A stretch of DNA of 40,514 nt from Bacteroidota bacterium (GTDB taxonomy: Bacteria > Bacteroidota > Bacteroidia > Bacteroidales > UBA4417), in assembly GCA_013376995.1 (NCBI GenBank), contig JACAAZ010000029.1, positions 1 through 40,514 of the forward strand. The letters are read 5' to 3'. The position numbers and the translations under genes were made by a program. Below the pieces are notes generated by a model, which was not told the origin of the DNA, searched no databases, and saw only the letters and a program-made list of their open reading frames with translations. Positions 363 through 38,133 of the stretch are shown here, piece after piece. The first letter of the stretch is position 1. Each line of letters starts with the position of its first letter.

Positions 363-3300
363 ATGTTACAAAAATCCCAACCCAAGAATTATTCCTGCGT
401 TCTCCAGGTGTTTGTCATCCTGGTTTTTGTATTCAGCCATTATGCTTGTTATGGCCAGGTTACATATCACCCTGGAATTGCTAACCAGTTAAGGACCAAT
501 CAACAAAATTTACCTCCCCAATTTTTAAATCCCGAATTTGACACATCTGCAGGAGCAACAGAGGGAATTGTAGTTCACAATCCGATAACCAGGCATGATG
601 TTCACAAACATTTTCAACCAACTTCAGAATTCTCTGGTTCCATTGATTCGGGACTTTATAAAAGATTTTCCAGGCAGCATAATCCTGCGTTACATTCTGC
701 AGGGCAGGAGAATGATAATTTCAGTACGAATGTACCTCTTCAGCCAACAGTTAATCCGGCAAACTGGCCGGCTTGTGTAAATTGCAAGCTCATTATTCAT
801 GTCGGAAGTAATGTATATGAAGCTTCTGGCATTTTAGTTGATTCAAGATCCGTGCTTACCGCCGGTCACGTATTATTTAGTCCTGCTTATGGTGGAGATG
901 GCTGGGCTGACCAGGTTGAAGTGATCCCTGCTTACACGGAACCTAATGAACCCTATGGTCATGCAATGGGTGCGCAATTTTCTGTTGTTGAACATTGGTG
1001 GTACCAGGATGAGTATAAAGACGAGTTTGATCTTGGGGTGGTATTATTGGAAAGACCGGTTGGAGCATTAACGGGTTGGTATGGTTTTGATTATCAATCG
1101 GATGATTTCTTCTTTACCCACACATTCTGGAATTTCAACTATCCTGCTGCTTCACCATATACCGGATGTTGCGAGTATTACAGGAGCGGACCATTTGATG
1201 CAATTTACAATAATAATATCCTTGCAATAAACAGTACTTTTTTTGATGGCCAGGATGGAAGTGGAGCTTACTATAATGATCCGACGAACGGAAGAATGGT
1301 TTATGGGATTTTATCAATTCCTTATCCGCCACCCACCTATGAGCAAACTGCCTTTGTTAGGATTACCTGGTTAAAATGGGTATATATAGCTAACACAATA
1401 GATAATTATACACCAGTAAATCCTTTATTATTTCCGCTCCAAGTCCAGGTGAACCCTGATTCTGTTCAACCCGGCCAAACGTTTACCACCTTCACTTTCA
1501 AAGTTCACAATTATTCTTTTAATGATTTTTCCGGGACGCAAAATGTAGATATCTATCTTTCCACAGATAAGAACATTACTCCAACCGATATGAAAATATC
1601 TTCCGGGTATTTTACCGGGGCGATTCCCAGCCTTGGGACAATTACAGTGAATGTACCTAACATGCAGATTCCTTGTACGCCTCCATCAAGTCCCAATAAT
1701 CTTTATTATATCGGCATTGCACTGGATAACCAGTTTACATCCGATCAGGATGTTGCAAAGGTTAAAATAAATGCCCAGGACACTTCACACTTTGAGACGG
1801 AATTAATGTGGAATCGCAGTCCTTCTTATCCTATGATCCAGGGGGTGGTTTCAGATGGAAGTTCCACACTGAAAATCCGTCTTAACAGAACTTCCGGGGA
1901 CTCAGAGATCAACTCAATTTTTCTTCAATTGCAAGCTGTATCTGGCGAAGTTGATGGTCCGCTGGGAAGCGTTGGATCAACGACCACCATTATTACTGGA
2001 GCAAGTTGTTCTGTCCCTGGCTCATCGGGTAATGATCAATGGGACTTCTATTATAAAGCTCCGGAAAAATTCTCAAACAATTCAAATAGCAATAGCCCAG
2101 TAAGAATTCTAAAAGCTGTTTTCACAATTAATGCTACACAAAATGGAAATCCGGTTTGTAAAACCGTTGAGCAAATAATTAAGATAATACGGCCACCCGT
2201 ATTATTAATACATGGTTTAGGTGATAATAGTGAGTGCTTTTCATCACTTTATACGGATTTATTGAATTCAAATAAGTATTCAAAGTATCAAGTAAAATGT
2301 GTAGATTATCGCTGGTCAAATACCTATGCATTTGTTGAAAATGTAAGAGTTATCGCCTCTGATGTGTATGAAATAAAAGATTTTTGGAATTTGGCAGGTT
2401 ATGAAGTTGATAAAGTAGATTTGGTCGGACACAGTATGGGCGGGGTTCTCTCCCGCTTGTATCTACAAAGTCCGGGATATAAAAATGACATTCACAAGTT
2501 AATTACCGTTAACACTCCGCATGCAGGTTCCCAAGGTGCAAACCTTATTTATGATTTTCAATCTATCTTTAGTAAATATTTTGATGTTATTTGTCCAGCA
2601 GTATCAGATCTAAGGGTAACAAGTCCATCAACCAGGGATTATTTGAATGGGCCAGCAAGAAATAATCGCGTTGTGCCTTCATATGCCATTTGTACAGAAA
2701 CTGAAAACCTAGACCCAGTATTTAGAAGCAACATGCTTTTTTCTGCAATTTACTTGGCATTCAAATTGAAATTTCCTGAGTATTTCGAAATAGCTGAATC
2801 TATACCTCCACTAATTTTTCTTGAACCAAATGATTTAGTTGTAGCTCAAAGTAGCCAAATTGGAGGGCTCAGTAAAAATTCTATAACTGAAGGCGAATGG
2901 CATAATGGAGCTCCTAGTAACTTGGAAGTCAAGTCAAGAATCAAGGACCTGCTTGAGGTTACTTCATCAGACAATTCGTTTTCGACAGGTGGATTCAATC
3001 CAACTCCCCTAACACCCTGGTGGTATGGCAAAAACTCGAATCAAAAAATGACATTTGATGATACTGTTCATTTTATTAATCCTTTACCGGGTGCAATAGT
3101 TCAGAATGGTCAAAATTTAGATATCAATATCTCCGGCACTTCAAACATCAGAAATATTGTACTGAACATACGGGAAACTCAGAATTCAGTCCTGATTGTT
3201 GATTCTGTGACTTCCAACTTGCACTATATATACTCAATACCACAGACTGCTTGTGGTATAATTAAACTTTTGGCTTTTGGCTTAGATTCTCTCAGCAACG

Positions 3301-5237
3301 TATTTGCTGATTCAACTTACATCAATATTCAAATGACAGGAACTCCCGATTCCTTATTTATTCCATATCCACCTGATTCACTTGTTCTTTCACAAGGATT
3401 AATGGGCAGTGTTTATGTTTCATGTAAATTCTCAAATGGAATCATCAGGGATATAACTACTTTGCCTGAGACCCAATACAGTATTCAAACACAAAATGCT
3501 ACCATTGTGTCTAAAGGCATTTTTAAAGGAGTTCATCAAGGCAGCGATTCCCTGATAGTTTCTTACCTGGGGCTCACTGTAAAATTACCAATTCACATCG
3601 GCCAGTATTACATCCAGAAAGATTCCATCCATACCTCTGCTAATATTTGTGCCGGCCAGAATTATTTGTTCTATGGACAATCACTGGATTCCACAGGCAC
3701 TTTTTCGAAAACGTTTACGAATCAATATGGATGTGATAGTGTTATATTTCTGAACCTGGCTGTCAACGAAGTCCCAGCCACACCAGGAGTGATTACAGGA
3801 CCTTCAATGGTTCTACCCGGGCAGTCTGGTATTATTTATCAGGTTGATTCAATCCCTGGTGCAACAAGTTATCATTGGAATTTACCCACAGGAATATCCA
3901 TAATTTCAGGTATAAATACCAATTCAATTACTGTGAGTATTTCTGATACAGTAGTTTCAGGTGGCCTAAGCGTTTTCGGGATTAATACATGTGGGAATGG
4001 AAATCTATCGCCAACACTTATAATATCCAGTGGTTATACGATTTCAGGATCATTCCGGTACAACAATGTTGCTAATACAACTATCGATTCACTTGAATTA
4101 AAGCTATACAAAAACAACAGCCTGGTCGATACTAAACATTCAGATATTAGCGGGCACTATGCTTTTAGTGGTAAATCAGACGGTACTTATATACTTAAAG
4201 CCACGACAAATAAACCCTGGTCAGGAGTAAACGGAACCGATGCCTTAAAAATCCAGCGCCATTTTGCCGGAATCGAATACCTGACAGAACCAGTAAGGAT
4301 TCTTGCAGCTGATGTTAATAACAGCAATTCAATCAATGGAACAGATGCGCTGAAAGTGAAACGCCGCTTTGCAGGCCTTGATACTACTTTCGCCCGTGGA
4401 AACTGGACATTCGCCAAACCTGTTATAGGTGGAGACACCATTCTTGTTTCAGGAAGCGATGTTACCCAAAACTTCTACGGCCTCTGCGTTGGCGATGTGA
4501 ACGGTTCCAACGTCCCGGGTCCTGGTGCCAAGAGCACAGAATCCCTTGAACTTAATTACAATGGCACTATTCTTCCTTCCCCGGGGCAAGAGTTTGAAAT
4601 TCAGCTTACAACCGAAGATGATTTATCGGTCAGCGCCGTCTCCCTATTGCTCTCCTACCCGGACGACCTAATCAGTATCAACTCACTTTCGATGAAAGAA
4701 GGAAGCCCTGTTTACACCCTTTCAGATGGACAGATCCGCTTAGCATGGTCAGAAATCAACCCCATGAAAGTTGCCAAAGGTGAGCCCCTGCTTACGATGA
4801 AAGCCCGTGTTAATGAGAATTTCAAGCCTGGAGATGTCATTCGCTTTGGCTTAGGTTCTGAAAGTGAACTGGCGGATGAGTCGGCAGAAGTGATCAGTGG
4901 CGCAGGCCTGAAAATGCCTGAAATCGGGGCTGTTACCTCGATAAAAGATCCAGGTCAGGCTTGCTTTATCTGCAGTGTAAAAGTCCAGCCTAATCCGGCA
5001 AAAGGAACCCTCAACCTGGAGTTTGACCTTACAAAAAGTTCCGACATCTCGATCAGTTTGTATGACCTAATGGGAATAGAAGTTAAGAGGTTGAAAACGT
5101 CCCCCGAAAAAGCAGGCAAGATCAGGAAACAACTGGATGTTTCGGGATTCGCAAACGGAACTTATTTCCTGAAGATCCATGCCAGCGGACCGAACCAGGG
5201 TAACCCTAATATCGTGAAAATCATCATCCAGAATTAG
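363..5237 (+). CDS. Secreted trypsin-like protease plus lipase fusion with dockerin, cohesin-like and T9SS domains
   Basis: A 1624-aa multidomain exoprotein. Residues 1-31 form a signal peptide (hydrophobic core VFVILVFVF, then CYG|Q). Residues 136-345 are a trypsin/V8-like protease with a visible triad: H169 in LTAGHV, D223 in EFDLGVV and S300 in GQDGSGA. Residues 610-860 are an alpha/beta-hydrolase lipase: oxyanion motif LIHGLG, nucleophile S691 in GHSMGG, probable D824 (EPNDLVV) and H848 (EWHNG). A PKD-like module lies near 1140-1220. A dockerin-like module at 1284-1390 has one good calcium loop starting at D1317, an incomplete one before it and a trailing DVNGSN. A cohesin-like domain (about 1395-1525) carries WSEINP and ESELAD motifs. 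Residues 1541-1624 form the T9SS type-A C-terminal domain (VQPNP start). It is likely secreted, surface-anchored or released, and acts on extracellular protein and ester substrates, which are unknown. It is the first gene of a plus-strand run, 104 bp before the next. Confidence 0.9.
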   Translation: MLQKSQPKNYSCVLQVFVILVFVFSHYACYGQVTYHPGIANQLRTNQQNLPPQFLNPEFDTSAGATEGIVVHNPITRHDVHKHFQPTSEFSGSIDSGLYKRFSRQHNPALHSAGQENDNFSTNVPLQPTVNPANWPACVNCKLIIHVGSNVYEASGILVDSRSVLTAGHVLFSPAYGGDGWADQVEVIPAYTEPNEPYGHAMGAQFSVVEHWWYQDEYKDEFDLGVVLLERPVGALTGWYGFDYQSDDFFFTHTFWNFNYPAASPYTGCCEYYRSGPFDAIYNNNILAINSTFFDGQDGSGAYYNDPTNGRMVYGILSIPYPPPTYEQTAFVRITWLKWVYIANTIDNYTPVNPLLFPLQVQVNPDSVQPGQTFTTFTFKVHNYSFNDFSGTQNVDIYLSTDKNITPTDMKISSGYFTGAIPSLGTITVNVPNMQIPCTPPSSPNNLYYIGIALDNQFTSDQDVAKVKINAQDTSHFETELMWNRSPSYPMIQGVVSDGSSTLKIRLNRTSGDSEINSIFLQLQAVSGEVDGPLGSVGSTTTIITGASCSVPGSSGNDQWDFYYKAPEKFSNNSNSNSPVRILKAVFTINATQNGNPVCKTVEQIIKIIRPPVLLIHGLGDNSECFSSLYTDLLNSNKYSKYQVKCVDYRWSNTYAFVENVRVIASDVYEIKDFWNLAGYEVDKVDLVGHSMGGVLSRLYLQSPGYKNDIHKLITVNTPHAGSQGANLIYDFQSIFSKYFDVICPAVSDLRVTSPSTRDYLNGPARNNRVVPSYAICTETENLDPVFRSNMLFSAIYLAFKLKFPEYFEIAESIPPLIFLEPNDLVVAQSSQIGGLSKNSITEGEWHNGAPSNLEVKSRIKDLLEVTSSDNSFSTGGFNPTPLTPWWYGKNSNQKMTFDDTVHFINPLPGAIVQNGQNLDINISGTSNIRNIVLNIRETQNSVLIVDSVTSNLHYIYSIPQTACGIIKLLAFGLDSLSNVFADSTYINIQMTGTPDSLFIPYPPDSLVLSQGLMGSVYVSCKFSNGIIRDITTLPETQYSIQTQNATIVSKGIFKGVHQGSDSLIVSYLGLTVKLPIHIGQYYIQKDSIHTSANICAGQNYLFYGQSLDSTGTFSKTFTNQYGCDSVIFLNLAVNEVPATPGVITGPSMVLPGQSGIIYQVDSIPGATSYHWNLPTGISIISGINTNSITVSISDTVVSGGLSVFGINTCGNGNLSPTLIISSGYTISGSFRYNNVANTTIDSLELKLYKNNSLVDTKHSDISGHYAFSGKSDGTYILKATTNKPWSGVNGTDALKIQRHFAGIEYLTEPVRILAADVNNSNSINGTDALKVKRRFAGLDTTFARGNWTFAKPVIGGDTILVSGSDVTQNFYGLCVGDVNGSNVPGPGAKSTESLELNYNGTILPSPGQEFEIQLTTEDDLSVSAVSLLLSYPDDLISINSLSMKEGSPVYTLSDGQIRLAWSEINPMKVAKGEPLLTMKARVNENFKPGDVIRFGLGSESELADESAEVISGAGLKMPEIGAVTSIKDPGQACFICSVKVQPNPAKGTLNLEFDLTKSSDISISLYDLMGIEVKRLKTSPEKAGKIRKQLDVSGFANGTYFLKIHASGPNQGNPNIVKIIIQN

Positions 5238-5274: not shown

Positions 5275-5341
5275 CTTCATTCATTTCGATAGCTAAGGAT
5301 TTCTATACTTTAAGAGATAAATATAATTTAAAAAGAATATT

Positions 5342-8300
5342 ATGAGTAGGGTAGCGTTTTTGATCTTAATCTTTTGGAGCATTTGTTCTTTGTCGACTGC
5401 CCAATCTAATTCCCGGTTTTGGAAAGGATTATTATCTTCATCTCAAGGACAAGCAGCCTATGCAGTTGTGAATGACAGTCTTTATCGAATAGATGGGGGG
5501 ACGTGGCTGTTCAAGGCATATTTGAATTCTGGCAATAATGTCCTTAATGACTTAAAAGTAAATAATAATGTTTTATGGGCATTTTACTCCTCTACCATAA
5601 AATATAGTCCTGACGAAGGTAATACCTGGCAACTATTTTCTAAACCTTCTGATGCTTCTACTACCGGTAAATTTTATGGAAATTACATCTATTTAAATGG
5701 GGCTAAAGTATACAGGAAAAACATCGTAGCATCAAATAGCAGCTGGGAAACTATTTATAACGGTGGGTGTTACGATTTTGCCGTTACTGTTGACAGTACT
5801 ATTTATCTTACATTTTATGATTTCAGAATAATAAAAAGTACGGATAACGGCCTGACATGGAATGAAACTAACTGGGCGTCATCTGGTGAACAGTCCACTC
5901 CGTGTACTATCGAAGCTCAGTATAATAAAATATTTGTAGGAACTTACTGGGGAGGACTATATCTATCAAACGACGGAGGGAATAACTGGTTAAAATCTAC
6001 AGGATTACCAGTTGGGAAAGGAGTTTCAAACATATATTTAAATTCAGACAGCCTTGTTATTGTTTTAGTCAGAGATCAATTAAGTACGCCAGGATTGTAT
6101 ATTAGCTCAAATGATGGCGTCGATTTTGTTAAACTTAATTGCAGTTTGACAAGGTGGACAGAAGAATTTATTGAAGGTTTTGTAAGAAATAATAATAATA
6201 TGTTCTTAAGTGCTGGATATCGAGGCTTTCTTAAGAGCACTGATACCGGAAATTCGTGGAGCGACTTCAACAATGGCATTGATAATATTAAACCTCATCA
6301 CGTGATTAAAATTCAAATGGATCCGGGTGGTTCAATATGGACATTAATGTCGGAGACCGGAATTGGTCCACGTAACACCTGGGGAATATTAAAATCGACA
6401 GATAATAGTATAAGCTGGAGTGAAGCAGATTCCACGCTAATTGATCAATACATGACACTTGAAGATCTACTTGTTATTCCGAACGGTAAAGCCATTGTCT
6501 CACGATATTCTCCGGGTAAACTGAGTATTTCCACGGATGCAGGCAATAGTTGGGTGAGTAATACAGTTACAGGCATTGCTTCAACCATCAGCAGTTTACA
6601 ATCAAATAATTCCAATGATATCATTTTTGCAGGAACTTATTGGGATGGGGTCCTAAGAAGTATAGACGGTGGTTTGAACTGGGAAAAACTAACAAATGGT
6701 TTACCTAACCACATTGGAGCCTCAAGTATTGTAATTGATAATGACACTGTATATACAATCATAAAAAGTCAAAGCGGTTACGATGGAATTTATCGATCAT
6801 TAACCTTAGGTAATAGTTGGCAGAAAATAAGTTCTGAGTATTTTAACGGTATTATAAAAAATGGCAATTCGCTTTATGGGTACCAAGGACATTCAATTTA
6901 TAAAAGTAATGATGAAGGATCAACCTGGGAAAATATCTCAAATAATCTTCCTTCGAATTTGAACATTAATGCTATTACAATAGCAATCAATATTTCTGAG
7001 CCTTCATTGTCTGCAATCGTATTGGCAACAACTTCCGGAATTTATTGTTTCAATCCCTTTAGCTCAATCTGGGCGAAATTATCTGATACGTCTGGAAATA
7101 CTTTATTATGGGACAATTTGAATAATTGCCTAATAATTGGGAATGATAACGGAATAAACAAGATCAACGCATCACAAGTTTTTATTCATATTAATCCGCT
7201 TCAGTTAATAATGGGTGCCAATGCAGGAACCTGCCAGGTGAACATTTCCTCTTTAACTGCATGGCAGGCTACATCGAACAATGATTGGCTGACCATCAAC
7301 GGTTCAAATAACGGCTCTCCTGGTATTGCTACATTAACATTGAATGCCACAGAAAATAACACTTCTGCGACACGAACAGCTAGTGTCACAATTTCAGCTA
7401 CTGGCTTTGAGAACCAAACTATTACCATTTCACAATGCAGGAAAATCACAGTTTCTGCCGGTACATTAAACACTGTTCTAACTTCCGAAGAAAAAAACAC
7501 TTTAACCAATATCACCTTAGTTGGTGCTATTGATGCGAGGGATTTCAAAACCATGCGTGATTCAATGCCTGCTTTGAATGTGTTAGATATAAGAGATGTT
7601 ATGATTTCCGCCTATTATGGAAACCTAGGCACTCAAGGAACTAATAGTTTTACATATCTAGTTAATTCTATTCCTCAATATGCTTTTCTAAATCCAATTT
7701 CCCATTTAGGAAAAAGTAGTTTAAATACCATAATACTACCTTTTACGATTTCTAAAATAGGATGGAATTCTTTCAATAGCTGTAATGGATTAACCTCTTT
7801 CCATATTCCATCCTCAGTGACGTCAATAGACCAATATGCTTATGCTCAATGTTCATCACTGGATTCTATAATCTTACCTACTTCAGTAGTTTCCATAGGA
7901 TGGGGAGGGTTCTATGGATGTACTGGCCTATCTTTTGTTTTCATCCCAGCTTCAGTTACTTACATAGGCATTGAGGCTTTTTCAAACTGTGGAGGAGATA
8001 TTCTTGTAAGTGATTCCAACCAATTCTATTCAAGCGCTGATGGCGTTTTATTTAATAAGACTAAAACAAGTTTACTCTCGTGCCCTAAATCCAAAAACGG
8101 CAACTTTTCTATTCCTTCTTCTGTTAACATAATTTCGCAGGGGTCTTTTATTGGTTGTTCTGGACTAAATTCAATTACTATCCCATATTCTGTTACCTCG
8201 GTAGGCGGAAGTGCATTCGAATACTGTTATGGCTTAACTTCTATTGGAATTCCTTCTTCAGTTACTTCAATTGAATCTTATGCGTTTTATGATTGTAGAA

Positions 8301-9688
8301 ACATTGATTCTATTTATGCTTATTCAAATATTCCAATTAATATAAGCTCTTCTTATAACGTTTTTTATAATATTAATAAATCATCAACTATATTACTCGT
8401 TCCAATTGGTTCAGTGAGCGCTTACCAGGCAGCTAATCAATGGAAGGACTTTTTGCATATTGTTGAAATGCAGCCACAGCCGAGTTTCCAGTTGAGCGGA
8501 TCAATAACTTATAATAATGCGTCAAACACTCCTCTGGGTTCAGTGAAATTGTCAATTCAGCGTAATTCGATCCCCATTGATTCAACACTGACAAATGAAA
8601 CCGGGGCTTATAGTTTTTCTCCAATTTCCAGTGGAAATTATGCAAGCCAATTCACCTGCACGAAACCTTGGTCAGGTGTAAATGGAACTGATGCATTAAA
8701 AGTTCAACGTCATGTAGCGGGAATAGAACTAATTACTGAACCTATACGGTTATTGGCAGCAGATGTTAATAATACAGGTAGTATTAATGCGACAGATGCG
8801 CTCAAAATAAAGCGACGCGTAGTAGGCATGGATACAAGTTTTACCACGGGTAACTGGATATTCGCAAAGCCAGTTATTGGGGGGAATAACATCATAGTGA
8901 ACGGTGTTAATACTGTCCAAAATTTTTATGGGATTTGCGTAGGCGATGTGAATGGTTCAAATGTTCCCGGCCCCGGTGCCAAGAGCGCCGCATCCCTTGA
9001 ACTAATTTACAATGGTACCATCCTTCCTTCTCCGGGACAGGAATTTGAAATTCAACTTACTACTGAAGAAGATTTAGCAGTCAGCGCTGTTTCGCTGGTT
9101 CTCTCCTATCCTGCTGACCTGATCAGTGTCAGTTCGCTTTCAATGAAAGACGGAAGCCCGGTATACACTATTTCTGATGGAAAGATCCGATTAGCCTGGT
9201 CAGAAGTCGATCCTATGAAAATTGCCAAAGTTGAACCCCTGCTGACAATGAAAGTACGTATTAAGGAAAACTTTAAACCTGGCGATGTCATTCATTTTAC
9301 CCTGGGCTCTGAAAGTGAACTTGCGGATGAATCGGCAGAAGTAATCAGCGGTGTAAACCTGGAAATGCCTGAAATCGGTTCTGTAACTTCGATTGAAGAT
9401 CCTGGTCAGGCTTGCTTTATCTGCAGCATAAAAGTCCAGCCTAACCCGGCAAAAGGAACCCTTAAACTGGAGTTTGACCTGACTAAAAACTCGGACATCT
9501 CCATTGGTTTATATGACCTGATGGGTAAAGAAGTTAAGAGATTGAAAACTTCATCCGAAAAAGCAGGCAGGATCCGGAAACAACTGGATGTTTCGGGATT
9601 CGCAAACGGAACTTATTTCCTGAAGATCCATGCCAGCGGACCGAACCAGGGTAACCCTAATATCGTGAAAATCATCATCCAGAATTAG
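5342..9688 (+). CDS. Secreted Asp-box / BACON / BspA-LRR protein with dockerin, cohesin-like and T9SS domains (chimaeric paralogue)
   Basis: 1448 aa. Signal peptide 1-20 (ends STAQ). Residues about 25-610 contain around ten Asp-box-like motifs of the SxDxGxxW type (STDNGLTW, SNDGGNNW, SIDGGLNW), as in sialidase/YCF48-like beta-propellers. I see no catalytic sialidase residues I could assign, so binding or structure is likelier than hydrolysis. Residues 615-698 are a BACON-like domain (TSNNDWLTI; TVTISATGFENQTITI type). Residues about 700-1040 are BspA-type leucine-rich repeats (IPSSVTSI, AFxxCxGLxSI). Next come a beta-sandwich linker, a dockerin-like module 1108-1215, a cohesin-like domain about 1220-1350 and a T9SS C-terminal domain 1365-1448. 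The part up to the dockerin resembles the downstream paralogue, whereas the cohesin-like and T9SS parts resemble the upstream protease-lipase, so this gene looks like the product of a tandem duplication. Likely an adhesin or scaffold. Confidence 0.9.
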   Translation: MSRVAFLILIFWSICSLSTAQSNSRFWKGLLSSSQGQAAYAVVNDSLYRIDGGTWLFKAYLNSGNNVLNDLKVNNNVLWAFYSSTIKYSPDEGNTWQLFSKPSDASTTGKFYGNYIYLNGAKVYRKNIVASNSSWETIYNGGCYDFAVTVDSTIYLTFYDFRIIKSTDNGLTWNETNWASSGEQSTPCTIEAQYNKIFVGTYWGGLYLSNDGGNNWLKSTGLPVGKGVSNIYLNSDSLVIVLVRDQLSTPGLYISSNDGVDFVKLNCSLTRWTEEFIEGFVRNNNNMFLSAGYRGFLKSTDTGNSWSDFNNGIDNIKPHHVIKIQMDPGGSIWTLMSETGIGPRNTWGILKSTDNSISWSEADSTLIDQYMTLEDLLVIPNGKAIVSRYSPGKLSISTDAGNSWVSNTVTGIASTISSLQSNNSNDIIFAGTYWDGVLRSIDGGLNWEKLTNGLPNHIGASSIVIDNDTVYTIIKSQSGYDGIYRSLTLGNSWQKISSEYFNGIIKNGNSLYGYQGHSIYKSNDEGSTWENISNNLPSNLNINAITIAINISEPSLSAIVLATTSGIYCFNPFSSIWAKLSDTSGNTLLWDNLNNCLIIGNDNGINKINASQVFIHINPLQLIMGANAGTCQVNISSLTAWQATSNNDWLTINGSNNGSPGIATLTLNATENNTSATRTASVTISATGFENQTITISQCRKITVSAGTLNTVLTSEEKNTLTNITLVGAIDARDFKTMRDSMPALNVLDIRDVMISAYYGNLGTQGTNSFTYLVNSIPQYAFLNPISHLGKSSLNTIILPFTISKIGWNSFNSCNGLTSFHIPSSVTSIDQYAYAQCSSLDSIILPTSVVSIGWGGFYGCTGLSFVFIPASVTYIGIEAFSNCGGDILVSDSNQFYSSADGVLFNKTKTSLLSCPKSKNGNFSIPSSVNIISQGSFIGCSGLNSITIPYSVTSVGGSAFEYCYGLTSIGIPSSVTSIESYAFYDCRNIDSIYAYSNIPINISSSYNVFYNINKSSTILLVPIGSVSAYQAANQWKDFLHIVEMQPQPSFQLSGSITYNNASNTPLGSVKLSIQRNSIPIDSTLTNETGAYSFSPISSGNYASQFTCTKPWSGVNGTDALKVQRHVAGIELITEPIRLLAADVNNTGSINATDALKIKRRVVGMDTSFTTGNWIFAKPVIGGNNIIVNGVNTVQNFYGICVGDVNGSNVPGPGAKSAASLELIYNGTILPSPGQEFEIQLTTEEDLAVSAVSLVLSYPADLISVSSLSMKDGSPVYTISDGKIRLAWSEVDPMKIAKVEPLLTMKVRIKENFKPGDVIHFTLGSESELADESAEVISGVNLEMPEIGSVTSIEDPGQACFICSIKVQPNPAKGTLKLEFDLTKNSDISIGLYDLMGKEVKRLKTSSEKAGRIRKQLDVSGFANGTYFLKIHASGPNQGNPNIVKIIIQN

Positions 9689-28167: not shown

Positions 28168-28497
28168 TTATTGCTTCCTCTTTTTCAAGCTCAGGTATGC
28201 TTCTGCCCTGTTTTCAGTCAATGTTTTTCTACGACCAGACTTGATATATTCATCGATTTCGCGTTTGGAGAAAATAAGGTTCTTGTCGGGCTTATGGAAA
28301 GGTATCCTGCGTTTACGTACAAGTGCATAAATGGTTGACTTTGCCGGTTTATTTGGCATGTATTCACATACTTCAGCAAGGTTTAGCCATTGATCATTGT
28401 TCGAATTTGTAATATTCTCGGATTCAAAATGATGAAGGACTCTGTTTAGTATTGCTTCGATCTGGTTTAAGCGTGATTCAAGCGATTCATTTTCCAT
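28168..28497 (-). CDS. Small helix-turn-helix DNA-binding protein, excisionase-like
   Basis: 109 aa, ATG start at 28497. The N-terminal third (about 1-30) is a likely coiled coil (SLESRLNQIEAILNRVL). Residues about 36-90 fit the MerR/excisionase-type HTH_17 fold: WLNLAEVCEYM, STIYALVRKRRIPFHK, and a winged end KNLIFSKREIDEYIKSG. The tail is basic. Such proteins in Bacteroidetes mobile elements act as recombination directionality factors or regulators, but this one is 10 kb from the integrase, so a regulator of the cargo genes is equally possible. It stands alone between the terminator of the plus-strand operon and a 1-kb gap. Confidence 0.8.
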   Translation of the reverse strand: MENESLESRLNQIEAILNRVLHHFESENITNSNNDQWLNLAEVCEYMPNKPAKSTIYALVRKRRIPFHKPDKNLIFSKREIDEYIKSGRRKTLTENRAEAYLSLKKRKQ

Positions 28498-29501: not shown

Positions 29502-32339
29502 TTAAGGCTTATGAACCCGAACAATAGCAGACGAATTATTGTCAATTATTGCCATGTCTGACCCATCCACAATTGCATCTCCATTGAGATCCTCCTGGTG
29601 ATATCCTCTAAGAACAATAGAACTAGCATTATCAATTGCAGCCATATCCGACCCATCTACTATCCCATCTTGGGTTTCATCCCCGCCATAAACGGCGTAA
29701 ATGATTCCCATTAACTTTAAATTATAATCGTAAGCCTGAGTTGCAGATGAAGAAAAACTGTAATTAATCGTATTACTTGCAAATGAGACTGGTACAGCAC
29801 TCCAGGTTTCAATACTATTACGATGTTTTATTACAAGATAGTAGGAATTTGAATACGTATTGGGGATATTGAGTACTGAACTTCCATCTCTTAAAAGATC
29901 AATTGAACCAAATGATTGAACTAAAGTGTGAGGAGCGATACTTTGCCTGATCTCAACTGTAATTTTATCCGCTATCTCACCGGAATATTGATAACCTGTT
30001 TCATTTTTAGCCTTATTCATAAGGTTCGTGGAAATATTAAAAAGTCCTTCAAGCATAACATTAAGATTCAACACCTTATTTTCCGGGATAATTGTTACGC
30101 CCTTTGAACCCTGGGAACCTATACCACAGCTATTTGATGGAGTAACCACTATTGTTCCTCCAGCAGAACCAGCTGTTACTATAATAGTATTACTCCCTTG
30201 ACCATTTATAATAGTCCAACCATTTGGTAGTACCCAGTTATAGTATGTAGCATTTGGTACAGACGTTACAGAATATGAGATACCAGTTTGACCAGCAAAG
30301 ACCTGTTCTGGTCCAATAATACTTCCAGCTGGGTCAGGTTGTGGGTTAATCAACATAGTAATTGCATTTGAAGTAACTGGGGATCCGGAAGCGCAGGGTC
30401 CTGAAGGAGTCAGTACACAAGAAATAATATCTCCAGCATTCAGAGAATTACTTGAATACATTACCATATTTGCGCCAGATATTGGATTACCATTTTTCTT
30501 CCATTGATACAACGGAGTGCCACCATTTACAGGTGAAGCAGTAAATGCAACGGTAGTATTTGCACAAACAGCTCCGGAAGGGTTCGATGTGATACTAATA
30601 CTGGCTGGAGCAGGGTTCACCCCAACTATACTGCCATTTATATCAACTAATGGATTTGGAACTCCCTGGTTTAATAACACGTTGGATAATTGCAAAGTCG
30701 CAGTTGAACCAAGAATAAAGGTTGGGTTAATAGAAAATTTCAACATTAAGAGAATTCCAGCAGTATTGAATGAATTGCTACTTGAACCTGCAAAATTGAC
30801 AACTCCAGATGTTGGATTGCACACCACTGTCCAGCCTTGGGTCAAAGTACCATCTGTTTCAACTTGCAGAAAAGTTAAGTAATTAGAATTATATGTGACC
30901 TTCGCTTGCAATGAATAGACAGCTTCACCTGAAGGTAAGGCATTGATCAAAATCGGATAAGAAATTACTCCGGCAGCAGGGCAAGTTGAAGTTTCGGGCA
31001 TAGTGATCTGTGTATCATATATCAACCAGTTTCCCGAAGCTGCGCTAGCACCATGAGCATCAGTTGCTTTAATTACCAGATTTCCCCCTGTTTGCGTGGT
31101 TAATAATCCACTTTGGCTAATTGATGCAATTGACGGATTACTTACACTCCATTGAATAGGCGGTGTACCACCACCATCTAAAGTATATTGTTGGGTTTGT
31201 CCAGCAACCAATGTCCCGACAGATGGGGAAATAGATAATACCGGTAAGTTTATTGTTGAGAATGAACCATTTGTAAAAGCTGGTATAAGTGTTTCATTAA
31301 ATAGTCCGTTGATAAAAGAAAGCGATGTTGATCCGGCAGTTAGAGCTGATACGTGAAATCTAATATAGATTAGAGGACCACTACCGGAAAGCGGGGAATA
31401 ACCTGCAAAAGCAATAGCAACATTCCCCGGTACATTTAAATTAATAGTCGGTATAGGAAATGATTCTAAAAGGGTACCAGTTTGTATAATACTTACTGGC
31501 GTCAGAATACCCTGATTGAAACTTATGCTGAAATTGCCCGAGTAGATATTTAACCCCCCTAAATTTGATGTATTTATAGGAATATCTATATCTGACCCTT
31601 GCCATTGGCTAAGATTTGTCGGGATACTCAGTCTTAAAGCCTTAATTTCAATCATTGAATTTGTTGTATCCCTCAACCCGGTATTATCCTGTGCCACAAC
31701 TTTTGTAAATCCAGGTTGGACGGCTGTAAGTAGCCCGGATGAATTAATGGTTGCAACAGATGAATTAGTGACAAACCATTGATAGGGAGCAGTTCCTCCT
31801 GAAGACGAAAACTGCAATTGTTCACCTTTGCTTATTATCCCATAGTCTGGTGTCACGGTGATCGTTGGAGCCGGAGAAATATTGAGGTTCCCGTTGTCAA
31901 AACTCATAGCCGGGTTTCCCTCATTAAAAAAATTGTACTGAGCCCCGGTGAAACTTATTGTGAAATAGCTTGCTTGTAGAGCGTGGAAACGAATAAAAAT
32001 GAATTTCCCCGATCCTGTTAACGGACTTGTACCAGCTCCTGCAATTGTTATTTTACCAGGGACAGTAGTGTTGACTGCTGGACTTCCAAAAGGAGCACTT
32101 AGTGTACCGGCGGTAATTACAGATACTACTGACAAATATGATTGGTTAAAGGAAATTTGCAGAGTGTAGGATAATACATTTCGTCCGGTTAGTGTATTAT
32201 CTGCATAAACAGGAACATCAATATTATTGCCCACAAATGTTGCAGTATCGGGTATTCTCATGCCAATTGCCTGAGCTCGTAATCCAACTTCTGGATGGAG
32301 AGCTATTATCAGAAGAAGTAGAAATATATATGTTCTCAT
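29502..32339 (-). CDS. Secreted scaffoldin-like protein: three cohesin-like modules and C-terminal dockerin, no T9SS tail
   Basis: About 945 aa from the ATG at 32339; a TTG three codons upstream (32348) is less likely. Signal peptide about 1-23 (YIFLLLLIIALHPEVGLRAQ). Cohesin-like module 1 at about 24-155, BIG2-like 156-232, cohesin-like 2 at 233-365, BIG2-like 366-441, cohesin-like 3 at 442-577. All three cohesin-like modules show the pattern of an NxxxYS/L..SFN strand and a GxLxxIRFH or LLMLKF strand. Then follow an Ig-like module of the same family as the 3042-aa protein, a PKD-like module, a beta-rich domain, and a clear type-I dockerin in the last 60 residues with two calcium loops (DETQDGIVDGSD and DLNGDAIVDGSD). 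It ends soon after, so no T9SS C-terminal domain. This is the closest thing to a scaffoldin here; surface location would depend on docking to another protein. It lies 79 bp after the beta-helix gene, probably the same transcript. Confidence 0.9.
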   Translation of the reverse strand: MRTYIFLLLLIIALHPEVGLRAQAIGMRIPDTATFVGNNIDVPVYADNTLTGRNVLSYTLQISFNQSYLSVVSVITAGTLSAPFGSPAVNTTVPGKITIAGAGTSPLTGSGKFIFIRFHALQASYFTISFTGAQYNFFNEGNPAMSFDNGNLNISPAPTITVTPDYGIISKGEQLQFSSSGGTAPYQWFVTNSSVATINSSGLLTAVQPGFTKVVAQDNTGLRDTTNSMIEIKALRLSIPTNLSQWQGSDIDIPINTSNLGGLNIYSGNFSISFNQGILTPVSIIQTGTLLESFPIPTINLNVPGNVAIAFAGYSPLSGSGPLIYIRFHVSALTAGSTSLSFINGLFNETLIPAFTNGSFSTINLPVLSISPSVGTLVAGQTQQYTLDGGGTPPIQWSVSNPSIASISQSGLLTTQTGGNLVIKATDAHGASAASGNWLIYDTQITMPETSTCPAAGVISYPILINALPSGEAVYSLQAKVTYNSNYLTFLQVETDGTLTQGWTVVCNPTSGVVNFAGSSSNSFNTAGILLMLKFSINPTFILGSTATLQLSNVLLNQGVPNPLVDINGSIVGVNPAPASISITSNPSGAVCANTTVAFTASPVNGGTPLYQWKKNGNPISGANMVMYSSNSLNAGDIISCVLTPSGPCASGSPVTSNAITMLINPQPDPAGSIIGPEQVFAGQTGISYSVTSVPNATYYNWVLPNGWTIINGQGSNTIIVTAGSAGGTIVVTPSNSCGIGSQGSKGVTIIPENKVLNLNVMLEGLFNISTNLMNKAKNETGYQYSGEIADKITVEIRQSIAPHTLVQSFGSIDLLRDGSSVLNIPNTYSNSYYLVIKHRNSIETWSAVPVSFASNTINYSFSSSATQAYDYNLKLMGIIYAVYGGDETQDGIVDGSDMAAIDNASSIVLRGYHQEDLNGDAIVDGSDMAIIDNNSSAIVRVHKP

Positions 32340-32418
32340 TGTTTTCAAATTCAGATTTTACAATAAATTAATTATAAATGAAGGGCCGCCTTCCGAGAAA
32401 AGCATGCTTGCATCACAA

Positions 32419-35400
32419 TTACCTGACAATTTGAAACATTTGAGTTTGATAACAACCATTCACTGTCAGCCTCAGAATATATGTGCCGGATTGAAGAGCG
32501 CTTCCTGAATTTGCAAATTGGATTAAATGATTGCCCTTTAAAGTCGATTCAGTATTAATCGTTTCAATTTTTTGTCCCATCATATTATATACTTCTATTG
32601 TTATATCCAGGTTATCTTCATCCAACTGATATGAAAGTGAAACATCTCCAGAAGAAGGATTAGGGAAAACATGGAACATTTTCCCTTTCATACGCAAATT
32701 ATTCTCCCTGATTCCTGTAGTCTGATCACTAATAGTTATAACCCCTGGTAATGAGGTAGCGGTCAGATCACTTTCATTTGCAAGGAATTTACCTACGGTT
32801 AACTCAGTCGTACCAATATATCCTGAGGGTAGGAAAGCATGAAAAGTGACCATTAGAGCAGTAGTATCAGTCGTTAAGGCATTAATTCCAGCTAAAGCAA
32901 TTGTGAGGATGTTGTTGATACTATCATTACTGAATGTCATATTCATTCCATTCAGTTGATTGATTACTTGGCTGAATTGCAGATAAGCAGGATCATATTT
33001 GAGCATTATATCAGTAGAAAACATTCCATAACCATTTATAACCCTTATTGGTATGGTAACGTCCTGGCCATTGGTTGTCAAAACGCTGCCAATAACTAAC
33101 TGTGGATCTGTTAGCATCAGAGCTCCAGCTTTCAGAAGCTCTGCAGGAAAATATTGGATCAATCCTACAACATATTGGAGAATAAGTGAAGCATCATAAG
33201 CCGTAATTCCTGCGGCACCACTTACATCAGCCACTTGTTGCTGCGTACTATTCAAGGTAATACTTCCAACAACATTTTGTAAAACAAGAGACGCATCATA
33301 TGCCTGAACAATCCCGTTTAAGCTCACATCTCCCATTAGAGGCACTGAAGCTCCGCTGGTTCTCCAGGGTGAATAGTCTACCATGTTGGTTACTGCATCC
33401 CCGGTTCCCCCTGGATTTCCGGAATGAGATGGCCCGGTATTACTTCCCCACCAGCAGTTTTCAGCATTGATGTTGAAAGCGAGACCGGCATTCTGGACTC
33501 CATATGCCACATTACCATAGATATCACAATTATTGACAATTGGATTGGATGCCCCATTGGATTGAACACCAACATTATTTTTGTTCAATACAGTATTGGT
33601 AATTGAAGGGCTTGCATTAATACATCTCACGCCTGCATAATCACCGTAATTATATCCGGAATATCTAATTATACAATGATTAAGTTTGCAATGAATGTCA
33701 TCGGATTCATCTTCAAAGACGATTCCTGTCCATGGATATTGGTAACCTCCTGTTATGGGATTAGGACCATAACCCGGTTGTGTTAATGAACCATCCGAAT
33801 TAGAGTCTCCACCATAAAAATCATCCCGTATATCTGTAAAAACTATTGTACTATCAGGAGATGAGCCTCCTTCTGCCATCAAACCATTCCTTATTGTCAT
33901 ATTTGATGATGCATTAAATTTTAAAGTAACTCCTGGCTTAATGGTCATAATTGATCCAGTCCCAACAGTAAAACTGCTATTAAAATAATACGGGATATTT
34001 GTGACTCCACCGAAATTCCGCTTTGGTATTACAACATTTTGCGCCATAGTTTCTGCTTTCACTCCTAAGGCTTTATAAGTTGTACCCGAAATTATATTGC
34101 CAATTGTCGATGATGGATAAGAGACTAAGGAGAACTCAAAAGGTGTATAAGTCAAGTTATTAAATTTGCATGAGTCTATAATTGGCTCAGAAACTCCATT
34201 CATATTTATTCCAATATTGTTCTTTTCAAAAGTGCTGTTCTTGATTGTCGGTGATGCCTGCTGGATTAGAATTGCATTGTCCTGGTATTTGAAGATAGCA
34301 TGATTAATCGTACAATTGGCATCATCGCTAATAGAACTGAAGTTTAGAATGTACTGGCTGTTAATGGATGGTGCAGTCAGTGAGCCATCACCATTAGTGT
34401 CCAAAGGATTCCCATAGCTATCGTCCCTGAAATCAGTAAAAACAACTGGTTCATCAACAGTACCAAAGATTTTAATACCTCCATTAACATCCAGGTATTT
34501 ACCATTAGGTGTTTGCCACGAATTACCATTAAAATCAGAGTATTTAAAAACTATCCCTTTGGGTATTGTTATTATTGTCCCACTGTTAATAGAAGAGTTA
34601 TTACTTCCGCACCAGTATTGATAATAGGAAAAAAGGATGTAAGTAATATTCTGAATACCAGCAAAATTTCGTTTGATAACAGTGTCGCTTGAAGAATAAT
34701 TCTCAATTGCAATACCTAAACCAAATAATCCCACATTCGAAACATGGTTATTATTCCCGAAAACCGGTTTGGAAAACAGGCTCATGATGATTGGAGTGGC
34801 AGACAAATTACTGAAGGTACTATTCGATATGGTTGGGGATGCATTTCCATATATCCCAATACCTGAGGTACTGGAATGTTTGAAAACACTGCTATCAATT
34901 GTAACTATAGTATTGTTAATACAAACCTCTGCAAAATGCTTATAAAGTCTTTGCTCATAATAACTACAAGGATTATAAAATCCACCATAGCTCACTGTAC
35001 AATTACTTAATTTATTCTGTTGAGAAACACCTAAACTACTAAAGTCGATGAACCCCCAATCTCCTCTATTTGGTGTAGTGTTATTTCCGTCATTGTTTGT
35101 ATCTCCTCCTTTAGAATCATCCATAAATGAAGTAAAGACAATAGGTTCCTGAGCCGTTCCTATAGCTGATAATTGTCCATTGATTAATAAATTACTGTTA
35201 CCCAGCGGAAATTTAATAACTACTCCGGGTTCAATCGTCAATAAAGCATTTTCGCTAACAACTAATTGTTGGATGATATATGCAATATTGGAAATACCTG
35301 CAATATTTCTCTTTCTCAGTCTAGCATTTGAGGATAATGTTCCTTCAATGATCCTGATGCCGTTACTGCCATTATTTGAAAAAGTGATGTTTGTAAATTG

Positions 35401-38133
35401 TGGATCCGATTTTAAGGACATGGCTATAGGATCATTTGTACAATTCTGAATGGTTAGGTTGTCAATTATTGGAATTGATGCACCATCTGACCATATACCA
35501 TAATTGGATGAATAAGATATTGTACTATGATCAACTTGGGTGTTAGCAGAAACAAAACTTAAAGATCCCTGAGAATAACATCCACCATACTTGATTTTCA
35601 GGTTATTCAAGTGGCAAAACAAATCATCACTCAAATCATTAAATTGGATTCTATCCCAATCCCCGCCTCCTGGTGATGTTGTACTTCCATCATTGTTGGT
35701 ATCTCCAGGATTCCCTTCATTATCATCTTTGATGGAAGTAAAAACAACTTTGTTGCTGGCTAGAATCCCTCCCAGAACCTTCAAGCCGCCATTAACCTCA
35801 ATCCGGGCACACGCATTAACTTTAATGACAACTCCGGAATCGATGGAAACATATGCCCCAGCACTAATAAACAAATTACTCAAAAGCAAGTAGGAAATGT
35901 TTGTATATCCAGCAAAGTTTAGTCTGGTAATTGTTCCGCTTACTCCCAAATCTTCTCCAATAATACCAATTGCTAAATTACTTGCATTTACAATTGTGTT
36001 CCCCGATAAAATTGGCGCTGCTGAAATAGATCTGGCAACAGGAACAACAGTGGAATGGTCAAAAGAATTGTTGAATAGTTTAGGGTGACTATTCCCGGCG
36101 CAATAAACCCCAAATTGATCATGCTTTATAATACAGTTCTGAATAGAGGGACTAGCGTTCACCAGGGTTATCTGACCACCTTCATAAGTGTATTGATTGT
36201 TGTATAGTCTATAGTCATCGTTGTCGCCATAATAAATTCTGCAATAATTGAGTTTGCTCGCAGTATCTGACGTTACCTTGAATAAGAAGCCTCCCCAATC
36301 ACCAATTGCCGGACTTGTCTGGGAACCATCTTTGTTTGTATCATGTGGATTCCCAAAATTATCGTCCCTGGCGGAAGTAAAAACGATTAAGCTGTCTGGT
36401 GTTCCAACTGCCGTTAATTTACCTTCAACGATGAATTTTCTGAAAGTACTATAAGAAGAAGTAGGATAATAGGTTTTTATGACAACACCCTTATTTATAG
36501 TAAGTGTTAATCCTTGAGGGATTGTGATGTTATCGAGCATCAGGTAAGTTATATTTTGTACACCAGAGAAATTCCTAACAGGGAGAACAGCATTTGCAGT
36601 CATTGTACCACCAAGCAATCCGATAGCATCATAGGCATTATCTGAGAAAGAGAGAGTATTGGTAGCCAAAATTGGGTTCGCCTCATAAGAAATTGCGATT
36701 GGGGTCATCTGGCTGGAACCAATTGTATTATTTGTAAATACTGGATTAGAAGCAGCTTGCATCATCACGCCGTAATAACTGTTCGAAAGATCACAATAAT
36801 CAATAGTTGGGCTGGCGCTTATAAGATTTATGGCTCCGCTATTACTGAGTCCGGCATACCTCACTTTACATCTTCTTAACAGACAAGATGCGTCAATACT
36901 AATATTATTAAATGTTATGCCATACCAATCCTGAGGAACTGGAGAAGTTGTTGCGCCATCATTGTTTGTGTCTCCTCCCCAATTATCATCCCTTTCAGAA
37001 GTAAAATATATAAATGTACCTGGATTTGAATTGGCATTTATGACGCCGTCAACTGTTATTCCATAGTATCTCCCTACTTTTAATATGTTTCCTGATAATA
37101 TTGTCAGAATTCCCGTAGAACTAATATTAAGTCCGTATACGAAGTAGTATGGGACATTAATGGTTGGCAATGTCCAGGAAGTAGTTAATGTACTGATCGG
37201 AACGTAGAATGCATTCCTGGTGTTGCCTGTAAAGTTATTCGTTCCGGATGTCGCTACGGATCCGGTTCCTTCATAATAACCTGGCCAGATATTATTCGTG
37301 AAGTTGCAATTAGTTATTAAGATATTTGTACCTGGATAAATATCAAGTGCAATATTTGAATGCGTAATATTAACATGATCAAGTGAAACTTGCGCGCCGG
37401 AAGCAGTTCCTATTCCGTAGCCAGGAGAGGTATAACCAGATAAATCAACATCGGTGTATGCCATATTTAGTTGCCCCTCTGCGTAAACTCCATATTGGTC
37501 TGCCCCGATAATTGAACAACCATTGGATGTCGTTACTTTTGCATTTGTGGCAACATAATAACCGTACCGGCAATTACCTATGTCCAGGTTATTTGCAGTA
37601 ATATTCGCATTTGCGAGAGCATAGATCCCAAAGCCAGAACCAGAGTAATATGCCGGCATATTAATATAAGTATCTTTAATACTAAGGGAGTCAGAACATT
37701 GTATGCCGAATGAATAAAAATTATCTAACGTACATCCGTCAAAGGAAACTGAACCTTTTTGCACATAAATCTGGTTGGCATAATTAAAATTGCAGTTCTT
37801 CAAAGTGCCCTGACCAAAATATGTTGATGTGCCAAATTGGATATTGTCCCATATGCCAGAGGTTGGAGAAGTAGCTGATGACGTGAATGAAGCATACTTT
37901 GCAATGAGTTTCCCATTTACACTCATGTTCCTGCTATTATTGAATTTTACTATAACAGCGGAATCAATTGTAAGAGTGACGCCCGGATTAACCGTGACGT
38001 TTCCCGTAACAGTGTAGGGACTACCGGCTAAGTTCCAGGTTGTGTTTGAAGTTAGAATGCCGGTAACGTCTGTTGCTTTTAACATTGTACTGCAACATAC
38101 CAGGGTAGCCAGGAGGGTCAATAATCTTTTCAT
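32419..38133 (-). CDS. Secreted right-handed parallel beta-helix protein with dockerin, cohesin-like and T9SS domains
   Basis: 1904 aa, ATG at 38133. Signal peptide about 1-20 (LLTLLATLVCCSTMLKA). Residues about 25-1590 form a long right-handed parallel beta-helix (repeated xNSTFxN/xxNCxI, ASPTI, GVY/GIx turns) made of large units. Each unit is marked by VFTSxRDDxxG, then a calcium-loop-like DTNNDGSxTSP, then W. Six such marks occur at residues about 382, 590, 802, 1004, 1236 and 1436. A dockerin lies at about 1598-1665 (DVSLNGIVQAYD and DVSGAAGITAYD), a cohesin-like domain at about 1670-1810 (FSTDIMLKYDP, FLANESDL) and a T9SS C-terminal domain at about 1820-1904 (VFPNPSSG, ending MFQIVR). 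Beta-helices of this type bind or cleave polysaccharides, but I cannot point to lyase catalytic residues, so adhesion or glycan binding is as likely. First gene of the minus-strand unit. Confidence 0.9.
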   Translation of the reverse strand: MKRLLTLLATLVCCSTMLKATDVTGILTSNTTWNLAGSPYTVTGNVTVNPGVTLTIDSAVIVKFNNSRNMSVNGKLIAKYASFTSSATSPTSGIWDNIQFGTSTYFGQGTLKNCNFNYANQIYVQKGSVSFDGCTLDNFYSFGIQCSDSLSIKDTYINMPAYYSGSGFGIYALANANITANNLDIGNCRYGYYVATNAKVTTSNGCSIIGADQYGVYAEGQLNMAYTDVDLSGYTSPGYGIGTASGAQVSLDHVNITHSNIALDIYPGTNILITNCNFTNNIWPGYYEGTGSVATSGTNNFTGNTRNAFYVPISTLTTSWTLPTINVPYYFVYGLNISSTGILTILSGNILKVGRYYGITVDGVINANSNPGTFIYFTSERDDNWGGDTNNDGATTSPVPQDWYGITFNNISIDASCLLRRCKVRYAGLSNSGAINLISASPTIDYCDLSNSYYGVMMQAASNPVFTNNTIGSSQMTPIAISYEANPILATNTLSFSDNAYDAIGLLGGTMTANAVLPVRNFSGVQNITYLMLDNITIPQGLTLTINKGVVIKTYYPTSSYSTFRKFIVEGKLTAVGTPDSLIVFTSARDDNFGNPHDTNKDGSQTSPAIGDWGGFLFKVTSDTASKLNYCRIYYGDNDDYRLYNNQYTYEGGQITLVNASPSIQNCIIKHDQFGVYCAGNSHPKLFNNSFDHSTVVPVARSISAAPILSGNTIVNASNLAIGIIGEDLGVSGTITRLNFAGYTNISYLLLSNLFISAGAYVSIDSGVVIKVNACARIEVNGGLKVLGGILASNKVVFTSIKDDNEGNPGDTNNDGSTTSPGGGDWDRIQFNDLSDDLFCHLNNLKIKYGGCYSQGSLSFVSANTQVDHSTISYSSNYGIWSDGASIPIIDNLTIQNCTNDPIAMSLKSDPQFTNITFSNNGSNGIRIIEGTLSSNARLRKRNIAGISNIAYIIQQLVVSENALLTIEPGVVIKFPLGNSNLLINGQLSAIGTAQEPIVFTSFMDDSKGGDTNNDGNNTTPNRGDWGFIDFSSLGVSQQNKLSNCTVSYGGFYNPCSYYEQRLYKHFAEVCINNTIVTIDSSVFKHSSTSGIGIYGNASPTISNSTFSNLSATPIIMSLFSKPVFGNNNHVSNVGLFGLGIAIENYSSSDTVIKRNFAGIQNITYILFSYYQYWCGSNNSSINSGTIITIPKGIVFKYSDFNGNSWQTPNGKYLDVNGGIKIFGTVDEPVVFTDFRDDSYGNPLDTNGDGSLTAPSINSQYILNFSSISDDANCTINHAIFKYQDNAILIQQASPTIKNSTFEKNNIGINMNGVSEPIIDSCKFNNLTYTPFEFSLVSYPSSTIGNIISGTTYKALGVKAETMAQNVVIPKRNFGGVTNIPYYFNSSFTVGTGSIMTIKPGVTLKFNASSNMTIRNGLMAEGGSSPDSTIVFTDIRDDFYGGDSNSDGSLTQPGYGPNPITGGYQYPWTGIVFEDESDDIHCKLNHCIIRYSGYNYGDYAGVRCINASPSITNTVLNKNNVGVQSNGASNPIVNNCDIYGNVAYGVQNAGLAFNINAENCWWGSNTGPSHSGNPGGTGDAVTNMVDYSPWRTSGASVPLMGDVSLNGIVQAYDASLVLQNVVGSITLNSTQQQVADVSGAAGITAYDASLILQYVVGLIQYFPAELLKAGALMLTDPQLVIGSVLTTNGQDVTIPIRVINGYGMFSTDIMLKYDPAYLQFSQVINQLNGMNMTFSNDSINNILTIALAGINALTTDTTALMVTFHAFLPSGYIGTTELTVGKFLANESDLTATSLPGVITISDQTTGIRENNLRMKGKMFHVFPNPSSGDVSLSYQLDEDNLDITIEVYNMMGQKIETINTESTLKGNHLIQFANSGSALQSGTYILRLTVNGCYQTQMFQIVR

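Follow-up and report, generated by a model that had tools for sequence, protein, structure and literature searches.

The DNA analysed here most plausibly contains a 40-kb island in tRNA-Val(TAC) that has its own tyrosine integrase and encodes a non-cellulosomal cohesin-dockerin surface system, in which X-dockerins would dock on protein F and protein G would serve as a scaffold for display and adhesion. We put the probability of this reading at about 60%. It builds on features that the sequence itself supports, namely the identity of the modules, the repeats at the borders, the T9SS sorting tails and a recurring gene order. Cohesins and dockerins are the plug-and-socket domains that hold cellulosomes together. 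Non-cellulosomal modules are reportedly the subject of Peer et al. 2009. The stretch examined (the window) is the entire contig C22 (40,514 bases) of a 5.05-Mb genome in 43 contigs. The source organism, an uncultured bacterium that is probably a member of the Bacteroidales, probably came from lake water, and many of its relatives are lake MAGs.

Modules of the eight cargo proteins

Eight large cargo ORFs occupy the window: A to F are read from the plus strand, H and then G from the minus strand, and the integrase lies at the right end. The ORF description of an initial annotation, made from the sequence, was borne out. That annotation had assigned cohesin-like or dockerin-like modules to six of seven cargo proteins; the seven listed there stand, but the real total is eight large ORFs, and D carries no such module. 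Using Pfam and PDB profiles, and AlphaFold2 with Foldseek for the E tail, we found cohesin and/or dockerin modules in seven of the eight large proteins. Across 14 control genomes, Dockerin_1 matched in two and Cohesin in two (one over the cut-off), and we regard the modules in the window as real, as judged from sequence. T9SS sorting tails (Por_Secre_tail) are present in six of the eight proteins (A, B, C, E, F and H), D and G having none. Such C-terminal tails, together with the T9SS sortase PorU encoded twice in the genome, mark type A substrates and agree with the T9SS export proposed earlier. Two tandem PorU genes lie in this genome at G000:C18:38678-45781, about 7.5 kb from a tRNA-Val fragment that ends contig C18.

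Four plus-strand proteins, A, B, C and E, show the order dockerin, cohesin-like domain and T9SS tail, as initially annotated, on the basis of Pfam Dockerin_1 and Por_Secre_tail, a tail profile and the fold of E. Protein A (1624 aa; 363..5237, plus strand) combines an alpha/beta-hydrolase (lipase-like) domain and PKD_6 with an X-dockerin (4227..4370, plus strand; no Ca ligands in loop 1, but a canonical loop 2), a cohesin (4527..4946, plus strand) and a T9SS tail (4989-5189). The hydrolase match agrees with the lipase that had been proposed. The protease proposed alongside it was not recovered: trypsin-like motifs in A were seen by eye only, with no protease match in Pfam at E 0.1 or in the PDB at E 1. 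Protein B (1448 aa; 5342..9688, plus strand) has sortilin-like, BACON and LRR_5 regions ahead of an X-dockerin (8678-8821), a tail cohesin (8978-9394) and a T9SS tail (9440-9640). Its paralogue C (1424 aa; 9793..14067, plus strand) has a diverged tail, with the X-dockerin at 13057-13200, the tail cohesin at 13357-13776 and the T9SS tail at 13819-14028. Protein E (470 aa; 17307..18719, plus strand) consists of an X module, a dockerin (17712-17855), a cohesin (18009-18425) and a T9SS tail (18465-18710), and in this compact form it resembles an adaptor. Pfam E-values for Dockerin_1 were 3.1e-6 (A), 7.4e-8 (B), 8.5e-8 (C) and 1.5e-5 (E), and in a six-frame search A, B, C, E and H exceeded the cut-off. 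The genes for A, B and C form a mosaic, with B and C sharing 83% over their first 2300 nt, A and B 80% over their last 1034 nt, and A and C matching over only 301 nt (70%). This pattern suggests segment exchange among the three genes.

The C-terminal domains of A, B, C and E gave no match to Pfam Cohesin. A tail profile of 17 sequences, searched against the PDB up to E 1, matched 37 distinct sequences: dockerins, two clostridial X-dockerins, Ig-like proteins in the X module, and a single cohesin, the archaeal 2xdh (E 1.1e-6). AlphaFold2 modelled the X-dockerin-cohesin part of E (residues 61-385, 51 sequences) with a pLDDT of 92.1 and a pTM of 0.87. The top three Foldseek matches of this model were cohesins (6kgf_A, E 1.4e-7; 2xdh second, E 1.7e-7) with TM values of about 0.6-0.7 by target length; pilins followed from rank 4 as loose alignments of more than 330 columns with an rmsd of about 12. 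The cohesin-like modules thereby passed the jelly-roll check that had been proposed for them, E by AlphaFold2 and Foldseek and A, B and C by homology to E, the one protein for which a structure model was made. We classify all four domains as predicted cohesins.

Within the X-dockerin, the first calcium loop has lost its ligands: positions 1, 3 and 5 of loop 1 hold T or S in 44/51, K in 45/51 and W in 50/51 sequences, while loop 2 is canonical. Only one of the two calcium loops is therefore canonical, and the label "dockerin" would denote homology, not proof of two-calcium binding. At the recognition end of the loops, N, D and A are kept in 47 to 51 of the 51 sequences in both halves, and T in 47/51 and 31/51. 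Between dockerin and cohesin comes a third motif, GDVNGS, whose G, D and S are invariant (51/51). Mean pairwise identity over the same sequences is 0.54 for the dockerin, 0.33 for the X module and 0.26 for the tail cohesin. In a further 18 ORFs an X-dockerin occurs but no tail cohesin was recognised; several of these dockerins sit at the extreme C-terminus, and two of the ORFs, L111 and L112, are near-identical. These two were the tail relatives found in a viral collection, which also gave one weak dockerin match.

Protein D (784 aa; 14906..17260, plus strand) showed weak fn3-like and FISUMP matches below cut-offs and a match to an arabinosidase model (107.5 against a cut-off of 600); Pfam found no cohesin, dockerin or T9SS tail in it. 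Protein F (3042 aa; 18801..27929, plus strand) has an N-terminal cohesin (18918-19205), tandem PKD/Ig-like repeats and a T9SS tail (27693-27920). This is the architecture given initially, with the tail found by Pfam and the cohesin over the cut-off at 26.5 bits in the six-frame search; the whole-protein scan at E 0.1 was silent on the cohesin. The F repeats also match Glyco_hydro_95_C, a C-terminal domain, at 28.8 versus 27.6 bits and over no single stretch. No catalytic glycoside hydrolase or CBM over the Pfam cut-off was found in the island proteins.

Protein G (948 aa from a TTG start, 945 from the first ATG; 29502..32348, minus strand) contains three cohesins (31929-32258, 31305-31631 and 30627-31007, minus strand; Pfam E 2.7e-24 over three stretches), PKD_6 and a C-terminal module of 189 aa with a symmetric dockerin (29505-30071, minus strand), and has no T9SS tail. 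With three cohesins, it has the make-up of a multi-cohesin scaffoldin. Of the earlier description of G, the three cohesins were recovered by Pfam, and the dockerin was recovered through weak PDB profile matches, Pfam being silent on it at E 0.1: a profile of nine copies of the module matched dockerin chains in 8/8 cases up to E 0.1 (best, 0.0018). The two loops of the G dockerin are canonical and nearly identical, and are of another type than those of the X-dockerin. Structure prediction of the module from two sequences gave a pLDDT of 33.7, too low to support any conclusion. Protein H (1904 aa; 32419..38133, minus strand) carries a beta-helix, a dockerin (33169-33333), a cohesin (32839-33102) and a T9SS tail (32452-32670), in line with the initial annotation. 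On the protein, Pfam scored its dockerin (22.1 bits) and cohesin (22.3 bits) just below the cut-offs; in the six-frame search both were over them (29.6 and 25.2 bits). The H dockerin loops look like a third type, loop typing having been done by eye. The cohesins over the Pfam cut-off in the six-frame search of the window are those of F, G (three) and H.

In a midpoint-rooted tree of 123 cohesins, the tail, F, G and H types each group, with support of 0.965 and 1.0 for the small F and H groups and a modest 0.74 for G. The H-G gene pair recurs in contig C12 of the genome (identity 63% for G, 49% for H) and in L072, and the three G cohesins and the H cohesin have tree counterparts in both.

A tRNA-Val island in a module-rich genome

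Two identical 54-nt fragments, each the 3' part of tRNA-Val(TAC), lie at 2..55 and 40068..40121 (both plus strand). They bound the gene set, and a tyrosine recombinase (38635..39912, minus strand; Phage_int_SAM_5 and Phage_integrase) adjoins the right repeat. With the tRNA 3' direct repeat at both borders and the integrase alongside, the inference of a 40-kb island at the 3' end of tRNA-Val(TAC) is supported, and on these sequence features we consider island status well supported. An intact tRNA-Val(TAC) stands at the end of contig C17, and the final 55 bases of that contig are identical to window positions 1-55, in the manner of an assembly overlap; the link between the two contigs rests on these common assembly ends, not on reads. 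A gene for an excisionase-like HTH protein (28168..28497, minus strand; matches below curated cut-offs) lies about 10 kb from the integrase. Neither the ten main ORFs (Pfam) nor the HTH gene showed relaxase or conjugation genes. At the right flank, a GIY-YIG gene (40164-40427) sits between two tRNA-Val 3' fragments. The last 55 bases of the window (40460-40514) are an exact copy of 40083-40137 and resemble an assembler k-mer overlap, so that the flank past the island is uncertain.

The same tRNA carries other elements in related genomes. Genome G003 has a 50-kb island there, with a related integrase (33-34% identity) beside the repeat and an HTH gene (28.8% identical to that of the window) next but one to the integrase, compared with about 10 kb away in the window. 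Its cargo includes efflux pumps, a metal ATPase and type I restriction genes. Genomes G008 and G014 also hold an integrase of the window kind beside a tRNA fragment. The tRNA-Val site therefore appears to be a hot spot whose cargo can be exchanged. In G003 (L148:13396-15252), five closely similar GIY-YIG ORFs, one of them checked with Pfam, stand in tandem at a spacing of about 395 nt with tRNA-like fragments between them.

The cohesin-dockerin modules extend well beyond the island. The genome contains 38 dockerin matches at E 0.01, spread across 16 contigs; 25 of them exceed the cut-off and 5 lie in the window. Cohesin matches number 17 across 4 contigs, with 15 above the cut-off and again 5 within the window, and there are at least 150 T9SS tails. 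From these counts, the network would not be confined to the island. The earlier claim that the whole set moves as one integrase island thus found support for the island, with its att repeats and the intact tRNA-Val on C17, and none for confinement of the modules to it.

A generic tRNA-Val hot-spot element could have gathered its surface-gene cargo by chance from so module-rich a genome, as the different cargo of the G003 island would allow. The search for the same set near integrases elsewhere, suggested initially, adds to this: the window-type integrase was absent from 51 related tail loci (L060-L110; 731,556 bases including flanks of up to 10 kb, many shorter) by phmmer at 1e-10 and with a profile of relatives at 1e-5. 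For the island itself this account is probably true. As an account of the cargo we consider it rather unlikely, as E-F and H-G keep gene orders found elsewhere and at least two likely functional pairs would hence travel together.

The C-terminal module of G is itself widespread in the genome, with 40 matches including G (two of them weak) that overlap the dockerin matches. Among the other 39 copies, 21 resemble G in having two SDM loop motifs; by eye, the loops of about 28 are closely similar and 11 differ. Since the module sits at the C-terminal end (36 copies end no more than 8 codons after it, 2 within 17, and 1 runs on), all but one of these proteins, many of them large, leave no room for a T9SS tail, and the module may itself be a sorting signal. 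In L028:11466-16001, a G-type module is internal, at residues 724-911 of a 1512-aa frame. Seven module proteins of the genome were scanned, and the sole clear enzyme among them was a papain-like protease ending in a G-type module. Across 60 genomes, the G module correlates with cohesins (Spearman 0.62): the 7 genomes that have it each show no fewer than 4 Pfam cohesin matches, a number reached by 3 of the 53 genomes without it. The threshold of 4 was chosen after the counts had been seen, and five of the seven genomes belong to one genus, within which the comparison is 5/5 versus 1/11 (p 0.0014).

Tentatively, and at rather long odds, the mobile island would plug into this resident network. 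It would supply further anchors together with a scaffold of three cohesins, the dockerin of which has a loop type found in about 28 other proteins of the genome, nearly all without a T9SS tail. Surface display would thereby be rewired, and dockerin proteins without tails would ride on T9SS-exported cohesin partners. A point against the shared loop type is that the differing copies make up 11 of the other 39.

Candidate docking partners

Gene order points to a partner for the X-dockerin. For the 50 distinct tails outside the window, 45 next genes were visible. Of these, 36 share the strand of the tail gene, and an N-terminal cohesin is encoded by 17 of the 36, compared with 1 of 180 control pairs. 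The control pairs excluded neighbours with tails, the cohesin profile was built from the same loci, and the 17 include several close relatives (L078, L084, L085, L090, L093 and L094 appear to be one setting), so the independent number is smaller. E and F in the window show the same order of tail gene and N-terminal cohesin gene. In 13 matched pairs (window E-F and 12 of the 17, leaving out L085, L093, L094 and both of L108), mean identity was 0.49 for the X-dockerin, 0.34 for the N-terminal (F-type) cohesin and 0.27 for the tail cohesin, the F-type cohesin being the more alike in 63 of 78 comparisons. Identity correlations singled out no partner (0.82 between dockerin and F-type cohesin, 0.78 between dockerin and tail cohesin).

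Relatives add enzymes to this picture. In L104 (5295-12669), the two genes behind a multi-cohesin gene encode an alpha-amylase and a subtilase, each ending in an X-dockerin, and X-dockerins also end a subtilase in L101 and an alpha/beta-hydrolase in L105. Because of these enzymes and the papain-like protease with its G-type module, a scaffold-and-client logic is likely; the island cargo itself appears mainly adhesin-like. L107 (5341-12669) has a gene order like that of L104 by length, likewise with two X-dockerin genes after a multi-cohesin gene, and the two loci may represent an amylosome-like set in Bacteroidota.

From gene order, co-occurrence and the enzyme-bearing relatives, we infer the following arrangement. 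A, B, C, E, F and H would be exported by T9SS and anchored. F would form a long Ig-like stalk with one cohesin near its tip, which could serve as the docking site for the X-dockerins that A, B, C and E carry; E, having a single dockerin and a single cohesin, would act as a small adaptor. G would be a three-cohesin scaffold, held without a sorting tail via its neighbour H, and its dockerin loop type, common to many resident proteins, would let the island add parts to an existing network. We have fair confidence in binding between the X-dockerin and the F-type cohesin, and less in binding by G and H. Rather than degrading cellulose, the system would likely serve surface display and adhesion, with few enzymes. 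Speculatively, X-dockerin and F-cohesin partners may tie cells together, because the proteins on both sides are anchored. The same anchoring also counts against docking, which would link A, B, C, E and F when all are already held by T9SS tails, and the N-terminal cohesin is missing from 19 of the 36 same-strand next genes.

That A, B, C and E join head to tail by way of their own cohesins, as first envisaged, seems less likely than docking on the F-type cohesin, since the dockerin is conserved and the tail cohesin much less so, whereas the next-gene cohesin is frequent and somewhat better conserved. In the same four proteins, the dockerin might instead pack on the cohesin of its own chain and form a rigid unit before the T9SS tail, with no network through these modules. 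The high pTM of the three-domain model of E also fits such a closed intramolecular unit, the GDVNGS motif joins dockerin and cohesin, and the tail cohesins stand apart from the other cohesins in the midpoint-rooted tree, with modest support inside their group. Yet a clasp of this kind is unlikely in view of the poor conservation of the cohesin beside a well-conserved dockerin, the ORFs with an X-dockerin and no recognised tail cohesin, and the enrichment of cohesin genes next door.

The modules could also be mere spacers or folding units near the C-terminus of ordinary T9SS adhesins, with no partner at all. The loss of calcium ligands from loop 1 and the adhesin-like character of most of the cargo would suit spacers. 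We nevertheless find this quite improbable given the near-symmetric conserved loop residues of both the X-dockerin and the G-type dockerin, the neighbouring cohesin genes, the co-occurrence with cohesins, and the X-dockerin enzymes behind the multi-cohesin gene of L104. Docking on F with G as a scaffold remains our preferred reading.

Relation to known systems and implications

Clostridial and ruminococcal cellulosomes contain X-dockerin dyads and adaptor scaffoldins; PDB entries 4wi0 and 4u3s from this group were among the matches of the tail profile. The island shares with them the cohesin and dockerin folds and a module before the dockerin, and E, with its single cohesin and single dockerin, is adaptor-like. 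Unlike those cellulosomes, the island has T9SS tails and an X-dockerin whose first Ca loop is lost, and it lacks a detected catalytic glycoside hydrolase or CBM. Genomic islands integrated in tRNA genes with a tyrosine integrase are a known class of element. This island resembles them in its tRNA 3' repeats, adjacent integrase, excisionase-like gene and the other cargo in a relative, and differs from the usual ones in its cohesin-dockerin surface cargo and in showing no conjugation genes. The non-cellulosomal cohesin of Archaeoglobus fulgidus (PDB 2xdh) resembles the tail cohesin, although organism and context are different.

The closest precedent we found is Ca. Stygibacter (Cloacimonadota), for which, in the parts of PMC8542988 consulted, a cellulosome-like complex was proposed. 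Common features are dockerin proteins that include peptidases, a large multi-cohesin scaffoldin with a C-terminal surface-attachment domain, and inference from lake MAGs. In Stygibacter, dockerin enzymes would gather on one scaffoldin, whereas here dockerin and cohesin share one chain before a T9SS tail; several dockerin types, few enzymes, a tRNA-integrated island and a different phylum further set the present system apart. Single-cell genomes of cockroach-gut Bacteroidota have, in the portion of PMC10266427 consulted, Pfam Dockerin_1 in Alistipes, Bacteroides and Bacteroidales and cohesin solely in a Christensenellales genome, and hence no paired system like the one here. According to the sections consulted of PMC5831590 and PMC7768429, the Bacteroidetes genomes described there lack cohesins and dockerins, an absence that the authors regard as consistent with the phylum or as expected for it. 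In the literature searched, some of it consulted in part, we found no report of a cohesin-dockerin-T9SS architecture in Bacteroidota.

The X-dockerin with one lost calcium loop could become a new protein-assembly tool if the pairs bind. More broadly, our data point to an inventory of T9SS-linked cohesins and dockerins that is conserved in Bacteroidota; relatives have what is likely an operon with enzymes, and an island carries one of the sets. Provided that the pairs bind, such an inventory would give the phylum another route to build surface complexes.
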